DNA of 64,000 nucleotides from Methanococcoides methylutens MM1 (GTDB taxonomy: Archaea > Halobacteriota > Methanosarcinia > Methanosarcinales > Methanosarcinaceae), in NCBI RefSeq assembly GCF_000970325.1, contig NZ_CP009518.1, positions 868,001-932,000 of the forward strand, read 5' to 3'. Of the stretch, positions 34,124-36,394 are shown one piece after another. Within the stretch, counting starts at the first letter, position 1. Each line of letters opens with the position of its first letter. A model generated the notes under the pieces. That model had not been told where the DNA came from and made no database searches. It saw only the letters and a program-made list of their open reading frames with translations. The position numbers and the translations under genes are program-made.

Positions 34124-34921
34124 TTACTTCACAAACGAGAACTTCTCACCGCATTTTTTTAGCAAATGCTTCGTGCCGCCTGCTTCGCTGACGACCTTTA
34201 GCATAGTGTCCGTATCGTTTATCCGTGTTCCCATCACCGCAGTGAATCCCTTATCATAGAATGGCTGTGGCATCATCACTGCAGAAGGACCGAGAAGAAC
34301 GGCCTCACGTGCGTTTCCCTTCATGGATATCAGTTCTTCCGTTGTTCCGTTCACCAGTGTGCTGGCAGTGATTATGACAACATCTGATCCAGAGAGTACT
34401 TCGGCAGCCTCGTGCTCCCGAACAACATTTATTCGGTCATCAAATATGTCCTTCTTTTCGATAACCGTAAGCTGGTCTGTGATCTTAAGTATCCTTGGTA
34501 TCATAGGGCTGAAATGGCCTACCATTCCAACTCTGTCGCCTGGTTTTATAAGGTCAAGTACATCGGCATCGGAGAATGTATACTTCTCAGGATTGCGGTC
34601 GCATATCATGGTCGCCAATGCATTCAATGTTGCCACTCCGACAACAGCTTTGAGAGTGTTATCCGAGAGTACCATTTCCATGATTTCTGATGCAGGCTTT
34701 CCTGTCATATCTCCTGCTTTTGGCAGTGTAGAACAGTGAGCTGAATTTGATTGCGGTGATTGGGGCTGTGTGGCTGCAATTCCTCCGTAACCACCTGTGA
34801 TCTTCACGCCACTGTAGACGACACCAACCCTGACATCTTCCACGTAGATATCATCAAGTGCTCCGTCGAGTTCCTGCCTGATCTGATCAAGTAGCATTTT
34901 CATTAATGAATTATTTTCCAT
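34124..34921 (-). CDS. DUF364/DUF4213 protein
   Basis: A 265-residue protein of the COG2014 family, whose members have an N-terminal enolase-like part (DUF4213) and a C-terminal Rossmann-like part (DUF364) and are suspected to bind metal chelates. Family features are VRVGVVYSGVKI early, VGVATLNAL in the centre, DRVGMVGHFSPMIPRI and DVVIITASTLVNGTTEEL. It lies 88 bases downstream of the amber-interrupted ModD-like gene on the same strand, with an 11-base tandem repeat in the gap. DUF364 genes are often near molybdenum or iron uptake genes, so a metal-related role is possible. Confidence 0.75.
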   Translation of the reverse strand: MENNSLMKMLLDQIRQELDGALDDIYVEDVRVGVVYSGVKITGGYGGIAATQPQSPQSNSAHCSTLPKAGDMTGKPASEIMEMVLSDNTLKAVVGVATLNALATMICDRNPEKYTFSDADVLDLIKPGDRVGMVGHFSPMIPRILKITDQLTVIEKKDIFDDRINVVREHEAAEVLSGSDVVIITASTLVNGTTEELISMKGNAREAVLLGPSAVMMPQPFYDKGFTAVMGTRINDTDTMLKVVSEAGGTKHLLKKCGEKFSFVK

Positions 34922-34948
34922 CTTAGTTCCGCCCGGGAGAGTTTTCCT

Positions 34949-35000
34949 CTTCTTCTTCTCTTCTTCTTCTCTTCTTCTTCTCTTCTTCTTCTCTTCTTCT
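34949..35000. repeat. 11-bp tandem repeat, polypurine/polypyrimidine
   Basis: The unit CTTCTTCTTCT is repeated about 4.7 times without interruption (34949-35000). In the transcription direction of the flanking genes it is a pure GAAG-type purine tract, between the stop of the ModD-like gene and the DUF364 start. Such tracts change length easily and can form triplex DNA. Confidence 0.9.
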
Positions 35001-35009
35001 ATCTCTTTC

Positions 35010-35801
35010 TCAGACCCTGTCTATCTTTGTTGTAAGGTCAAAAGGCTTTGCATAATACGGTGCAGTGGTCACGACGATATCAACAGCTTCTGCGTATGCT
35101 GGTATATCCTTGAACTCGATGCCACCAACTGCGATCTCGAGTTTGGGGTTGATCTTGCGAAGCTCGGGAGCAACTTCCTTTAGCTCTTCCGGTGTGTAGT
35201 GATCAAGAAGCAGTACATCCGCGATCGGGGCATATTCGAAGACCTCATCCCTTGTCCTTGGCTCGATCTCGATCTTCCTCATTGAGTTGAGTTTTCCAAA
35301 AGTTCCGACAACGTTAAAGTGATTTTGTGTTATAAGGACCGAATCGCTCAGTGAGTTGCGGTGGTGATCTCCATCTCCTGCTCTTACGGCCTTAAGCTCG
35401 TACTTTCGGAACCCTGGATGTGTCTTCCTGCTGGTTGCAATTATAACATCAGGGTTCACTGCCTTTGCAGCATCAGAGATCATTTTTGTCTTTGTTGCAA
35501 TGGCACAGGTCATGGAAAGGAAAGTCTGTGATATTCTCCAGAGTTTGAAGATAGTCCTGAGGTCGCCTTCTGCTTCGAAGAGTATGGAATTTTCCTCAAA
35601 TCTTTTTCCGTTATCCAGAAATGAGGTCACCTACAGTCCTTTTTTTTCATGGAATTGTGCAAGGTCGTCTGCACAGGCTGCAATGCCTGCATCCCTTGAG
35701 ATGATCTTTATTGTTCCTTCTCCCTCGATCTCCAGGAGTTCGGTTGTCTCATCCCCATAGGGACAATCTTCAAGTAAATAATGTTCGAATGCTTCTATCA
35801 T
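35010..35801 (-). CDS. ModD/NadC-like phosphoribosyltransferase with in-frame amber codon
   Basis: The open frame runs from ATG at 35801 to TGA at 35010, 263 codons, interrupted once by TAG at 35633-35631 (codon 57). Both sides belong to one quinolinate phosphoribosyltransferase/ModD-type protein. Before TAG are LLEDCPYGDETTELL and ISRDAGIAACADDLAQF, the N-terminal domain. After it are SRKTHPGFRKYELKAVRAGD, GDHHRNSLSDSVLI, LLLDHYTPEEL and AVGGIEF. Total length is normal for the family. In this group of methanogens TAG can be read as pyrrolysine, so this may be one full-length protein. Alternatives are a nonsense mutation, or separate translation from GTG 35630 right after TAG. AGGTGAAAGG precedes the ATG. 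Confidence 0.75.
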
Positions 35802-36394
35802 CCTTTCACCTGTTGTTATAGATTGATGTAGCCAGTAGCCTGTTTTACGGAGTCTTCTATATGCGTGGCAATATCAGGGAGTCTATAAAAATGTTGTTAA
35901 CTTTCTCTGAAATTAACGGTGTTACCTAATTATTCGACACAGTCTGGCGATCAGGATAATAAAAGAATTACAATTCAAAACAGTAGTTGGAATTTTAATT
36001 CAGTCTGACAGACTATCGCGGTCCGAAAAGCTGGCAGATATGAAGATAGCCGGATATCCGGCAGCAAGCACGCCAGATATTCCGGTATTTCTTCATAACT
36101 GATGTTTATTTTTTGTACCGGTCCTGTCAACGTGTCGATTAGTATGCTTCCCGAGTTCCGGAGTAGATGGTGTACGAGTGCAGACGGGTGGCATATGAAA
36201 GACAGAAGAAATTCCGGCCCTGTCATCTTAATGTCAGATGGGACATTCGGATCATTATTTAATTTTGATCATGTCCTGTTCAAAGCGTTATGTCTTCGAT
36301 ATGTATGAACGAACATATCGGTTATAAATTTATCGATTGAACGACGGTCCATTTTTCCGACAAATTGATATTTGCAAAAAATTATTGCTATAGC
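35802..36394. other. Gap of about 590 bases with only doubtful small frames
   Basis: Two overlapping short open frames exist on opposite strands: 35975-36226 minus, 83 codons, and 36102-36308 plus, 68 codons. Neither has a ribosome site or a recognisable product. The minus frame (starting MTGPEFLLSF) looks somewhat more protein-like, with a balanced composition. A TATA-like TTATAAATTT at about 36323-36332 may serve the NIF3 gene. The 35880-35960 part is AT-rich. Confidence 0.3.

Follow-up and report, generated by a model that had tools for sequence, protein, structure and literature searches.

The locus and its gene

The window, a stretch of 64,000 nucleotides of the Methanococcoides methylutens MM1 genome (NZ_CP009518.1, positions 868,001 to 932,000), carries on its reverse strand a QRPTase-family gene that extends from an ATG at 35801 to a TGA ending at 35010 and whose sole in-frame stop is a TAG at codon 57 (35633-35631, here TAG57). 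A DUF4213/DUF364 gene lies downstream (Table 1), and comparison of gene neighbourhoods indicated that this gene adjoins the QRPTase-family gene in part of the genus only. The two genes are separated by a tandem CTCTTCTTCTT repeat (5.5 copies, window 34944-35007), which is absent from the matching stretch of a congeneric genome, G008.

Both domains of the family were detected with Pfam above their gathering scores (QRPTase_N, 45.4 bits with a cut-off of 27; QRPTase_C, 93.6 bits with a cut-off of 23.1). The QRPTase_N match covers residues 17-98 and therefore includes TAG57, and the orthologues of congeners can be aligned over the entire length of the gene. The initial annotation, which had described the TAG as the only interruption of a 263-codon gene with conserved parts on both sides and a good ribosome site before the ATG, was borne out on these points. 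Its label of a ModD/NadC-like protein held for the QRPTase superfamily and no further. The protein has the two-domain QRPTase family and motifs in common with NadC and ModD, whereas the curated cut-offs of both exceed its score (133.8 bits for the NadC equivalog TIGR00078, below the cut-off of 198.4, and 139.7 bits for ModD TIGR01334, below 178.85), and on these scores it is a QRPTase-family paralogue. A second QRPTase homologue in the same genome, which is 28% identical to the TAG57 protein, is more likely to be NadC because counterparts are present in nearly all genomes searched.

Table 1. Coordinates of the TAG57 locus and of other genes considered in the text (G000, this genome).
Feature	Location	Strand	Remarks
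QRPTase-family gene	window 35010..35801	-	263 codons plus TGA, TAG57 read through; Pfam and full-length orthologues
In-frame TAG, codon 57, proposed pyrrolysine codon	window 35631..35633	-	sense codon in ten congeners
Ribosome-binding site AGGTGA	window 35806..35811	-	5' of ATG; kept in congeners aligned
GTG, codon 58	window 35628..35630	-	directly 3' of TAG; family-invariant Val; possible, unlikely restart site
DUF4213/DUF364 gene	window 34124..34921	-	downstream of QRPTase-family gene; putative heavy-metal chelation; Pfam
Second QRPTase homologue	C1:2342543-2343289		
SepCysS, TAG102	L076:16276-17430; G000:C1:2076276-2077430	+	
fpoH, TAG61	L097:1730-2773; G000:C1:1881730-1882773	-	F420H2 dehydrogenase subunit, single copy
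PAS-GAF histidine kinase, TAG189	L096:7724-9367	-	TAG within GAF domain
Unknown-family protein, TAG at codon 80	L096:11863-12576	+	
pylB	L062:5489-6550	-	
Third MtmB-family gene	G000:C1:660852-662201 (L042)		
Second QRPTase-family gene copy in bin G009	L048:8001-8789	+	TAG at codon 189
Pyruvate carboxylase A-like gene, G008	L144:16933-18426	-	
ThiI, G006	L150:4523-5698	-	
HerA-like ATPase, G006	L151:7748-9034	+	
GNAT acetyltransferase, G006	L148:8035-8583	+	

Codon 57 in congeners and selection on the gene

The QRPTase-family gene is present in ten other Methanococcoides genomes, and codon 57 is a sense codon in all of them, encoding Lys in nine and Glu in one (G004). The nearest orthologue, that of G008, is 96% identical and uninterrupted and has AAG at this codon. 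TAG57 was seen in one species only, with no second species among the ten congeners, and since every congener has a sense codon it would have arisen on the branch of M. methylutens MM1 by a change of AAG or AAA to TAG. Where TAG serves as a sense codon throughout the genome, its retention at one site across species need not be expected.

Relative to G008, the gene has 38 synonymous and 11 nonsynonymous differences (Ks 0.255, Ka 0.018, Ka/Ks 0.071). After codon 100 the differences are 25 synonymous and 2 nonsynonymous, and both of the latter were assigned to the G008 side by outgroup comparison. Neither a frameshift nor a second stop was found in the TAG57 gene, no excess of nonsynonymous change was detected on its branch in the comparison with G008 and the outgroup, and relatives, in which clear frame decay would have counted against the initial annotation, have none. 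Judged from these substitutions, purifying selection on the gene is strong. The pattern fits a working gene and is compatible also with a very recent nonsense mutation, and the case was therefore settled on genome-wide evidence.

Such a mutation is what a recent pseudogene would entail: TAG57 would terminate translation, a useless 56-residue peptide would be made, and decay would not yet have begun. This explanation draws on the occurrence of a TAG at codon 57 in this species alone, as well as on a second copy of the gene in the bin G009 (MAG SMBSF09), in which an independent TAG occupies codon 189, as compared with AAG in the M. alaskense-like genome G002. The contig that carries this copy is syntenic with M. 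alaskense, and the bin may be a mixture of two species. With TAG57 here and a TAG at codon 189 there, TAG has been gained twice in this gene, which could alternatively mean that the gene is easily lost. Against a pseudogene stands, at this locus, a branch free of nonsynonymous excess, frameshifts and further stops.

The region just 3' of the TAG was considered as a site of reinitiation, by which translation would stop at TAG57 and restart at GTG58 to yield a 206-residue protein without much of the N-terminal domain. GTG directly adjoins the TAG, AAGGA is located six bases 5' of it, and the conservation downstream is as expected if that part alone were produced. However, Val58 is invariant in the alignment (A1) and GTG is its ancestral codon; G008 and G009, both with a sense codon 57, have GTG as well. 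AAGGA derives from Lys-Gly codons found in relatives. The restarted product would also be deprived of residues 1-57, which are rich in invariant positions and include the beginning of QRPTase_N at residue 17, and no start codon immediately follows the TAG in the other TAG genes of the genome. Reinitiation at GTG58 is accordingly regarded as very unlikely.

An AlphaFold model, which was mediocre (pLDDT 65) and was used solely for local secondary structure near residue 57, places this residue in the N-terminal domain, where a predicted strand begins behind a helix. Given this predicted position and the presence of Lys or Glu at codon 57 within the genus, pyrrolysine at residue 57 would probably be a tolerated substitution and not a catalytic residue.

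Pyrrolysine machinery and use of TAG in the genome

The genome is complete in a single contig of 2,394,636 bases (2.39 Mb). The gene pylS scores far above its cut-off and adjoins a gene for tRNA-Pyl with anticodon CTA (CUA), and PylB, PylC, and PylD, all above cut-off, are encoded in the same cluster, so that the pylT and pylS genes for which the initial annotation had suggested a check are accompanied by the three biosynthetic genes. No other tRNA with a CTA anticodon was found in approximately 794 kb of scanned stretches. The customary in-frame TAG is present in two mtmB genes and in mtbB; a third MtmB-family gene has no in-frame TAG. One gene passes the family cut-off for aRF1, and termination at TAG can therefore compete. 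A downstream RNA element was rejected as a read-through signal, since the search for a PYLIS-like element downstream of TAG57 gave a fold z-score of -1.2, which is not notable.

Stop codons were counted in 858 kb (36% of the genome), comprising the window and 40 spaced stretches, using a simple gene caller in which ORFs were scored by codon use. ORFs ended in TGA in 370 cases, in TAA in 313, and in TAG in 10. Seven of the ten TAG ends lie inside one protein, the frame continuing into coding sequence, and in each of the seven genes concerned (two mtmB, mtbB, the SepCysS, FpoH, and PAS-GAF histidine kinase genes, and the QRPTase-family gene) a Pfam or NCBIfam family spans the TAG. The apparent TAG terminators were confined to pylB, one TAG-Leu-TAA end, and one weak ORF. 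About 3 of approximately 686 genes thus end in TAG, where the trinucleotide expectation, a rough null, is 17%; against this rough null the probability of three or fewer TAG ends among 686 is about 6e-52. Avoidance of amber stops in Methanosarcinaceae was already known (PMC3941956). The TAG end of pylB, located shortly 5' of pylC, is found also in M. burtonii, M. mazei, and M. acetivorans (PMC2933860), and its read-through would append 42 residues that are non-coding in character.

Because random nonsense mutations or errors would produce interruptions by TAA and TGA as well, 50 same-frame ORF pairs split by TAA or TGA were listed as a control. Pfam was applied to 20 of these, among them the pairs whose start was remote or ambiguous, and in none of the 20 did a family span the stop. 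In the other 30, the stop is followed within 0-16 codons by a start codon, in most cases together with a stretch resembling a ribosome site, which is the arrangement that adjacent genes of an operon would show. With no TAA or TGA break inside a protein family among the 50 pairs (20 by Pfam, 30 by a nearby start), random nonsense mutation was rejected as a general cause. The same result argues against a pseudogene at the QRPTase-family locus, as do the encoded tRNA-Pyl and PylRS and the presence of TAG within other conserved genes, among them the single-copy FpoH gene; a recent pseudogene is therefore considered improbable, though less so than reinitiation.

Several internal TAG codons are shared between species. 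TAG102 of SepCysS is common to this genome, G008, and G004 and is replaced by CAG in other congeners; in the comparison of this genome with G004, the segments flanking the TAG have a Ks of 0.31-0.40 and a Ka of 0.02-0.04. TAG61 of FpoH is common to this genome and G008, with Ile, Met, or Leu in other congeners, and the two FpoH genes differ by only six synonymous changes and by no amino acid. A bias of TAG towards lysine sites was dropped as a general rule, as congeners have Gln in SepCysS and Ile, Met, or Leu in FpoH. SepCysS was also considered as the basis of a strong argument from essentiality, no CysRS gene in this genome passing the cut-off, but this was dropped because a second, intact SepCysS-like gene is located at C1:710519. 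A gene of unknown family was also observed to have a TAG at codon 80 with coding sequence on either side.

In small samples from two congeners, TAG was found in the biotin carboxylase C-terminal domain of a pyruvate carboxylase A-like gene of G008 and, in G006 (probably M. burtonii; 2,575,032 bases), inside ThiI, in the C-terminal part of a HerA-like ATPase, and inside a GNAT acetyltransferase. The initial annotation had proposed a possible pyrrolysine protein. That proposal gained support from the encoded machinery, the sense codon in relatives without frame decay, and the genome-wide use of TAG; what it had missed was the scale, TAG being found inside other conserved genes and hardly ever as a stop.

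The remaining alternative is a sequencing or assembly error of one base. A single difference (A to T) distinguishes the TAG from the AAG of the relative, and the codon is known here from the assembled sequence of one strain. Against this, the genome is a complete single contig, the gene is otherwise free of defects, and in-frame interruptions are of the TAG type alone and are found again, at the same codons, in species that were sequenced separately; an error is given the lowest probability of the three alternatives, marginally below that of reinitiation.

TAG as a proposed pyrrolysine codon in Methanococcoides

Since TAG is nearly absent as a stop and occurs inside conserved genes, the best reading of the sequences compared is that it generally encodes pyrrolysine in Methanococcoides; the QRPTase-family gene would be one of perhaps about 20 such cases per genome. 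TAG57 itself is taken, with a probability of roughly 0.8, to be a sense codon read as pyrrolysine, giving a full-length 263-residue QRPTase-family protein. In the proposed mechanism, PylBCD would make pyrrolysine, PylRS would attach it to tRNA-Pyl (CUA), and this tRNA would decode TAG57, so that the product would have pyrrolysine where most relatives have Lys; the codon would be tolerated because TAG would have become a general pyrrolysine codon of the genus and has nearly been lost as a stop. Both the insertion of pyrrolysine in this protein and the functionality of the product are inferred from sequence. Some ribosomes may still stop at TAG57 and release a 56-residue fragment; by analogy with M. 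acetivorans, in which an inserted amber codon gave 20-30% pyrrolysine read-through (PMC2933860), some truncated product is plausible. With less assurance, though still on the favourable side, TAG may be almost completely reassigned, with pyrrolysine in housekeeping proteins remote from methylamine metabolism (FpoH, SepCysS, ThiI, pyruvate carboxylase, and the QRPTase-like protein), and with their full-length synthesis pyrrolysine-dependent.

The methylamine methyltransferases MtmB, MtbB, and MttB offer the closest comparison in mechanism, as the same tRNA-Pyl and PylRS would read the in-frame TAG of the two mtmB genes and mtbB in this genome; in those enzymes, however, pyrrolysine is catalytic and the TAG is present in all orthologues, whereas TAG57 occurs in one species and is replaced by Lys or Glu elsewhere. 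In a 2021 review, the known pyrrolysine proteins were limited to methyltransferases, some transposases, and Thg1 (PMC8211752). The Thg1 and transposases of Methanosarcina resemble the TAG57 gene in that the pyrrolysine codon lies outside methylamine metabolism and is present in a subset of species (PMC8211752, PMC2933860); they belong to other protein families and were described as rare exceptions, in contrast to the widespread TAG of Methanococcoides. No mention of the QRPTase family as a pyrrolysine protein was found in the literature searched. Kivenson et al. (Science, 2025) reportedly described archaea, said to include M. burtonii, in which TAG encodes pyrrolysine across the proteome and is nearly absent as a stop. 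This archaeal code resembles what is seen here, and the TAG57 gene is probably a further instance of that wider pyrrolysine code, in a family for which naming as a pyrrolysine protein was not encountered.

Automatic annotation would label TAG-containing genes as broken or would split them, and if the reading proposed here is true, it would be wrong to count such genes of Methanococcoides as pseudogenes. Were TAG to serve generally for pyrrolysine, FpoH, which is single-copy and energy-conserving, SepCysS, and others would be complete only when pyrrolysine is available. The supply of pyrrolysine would then link core metabolism to pyrrolysine biosynthesis, and the use of the 22nd amino acid across the proteome would become open to direct testing in culturable methanogens.
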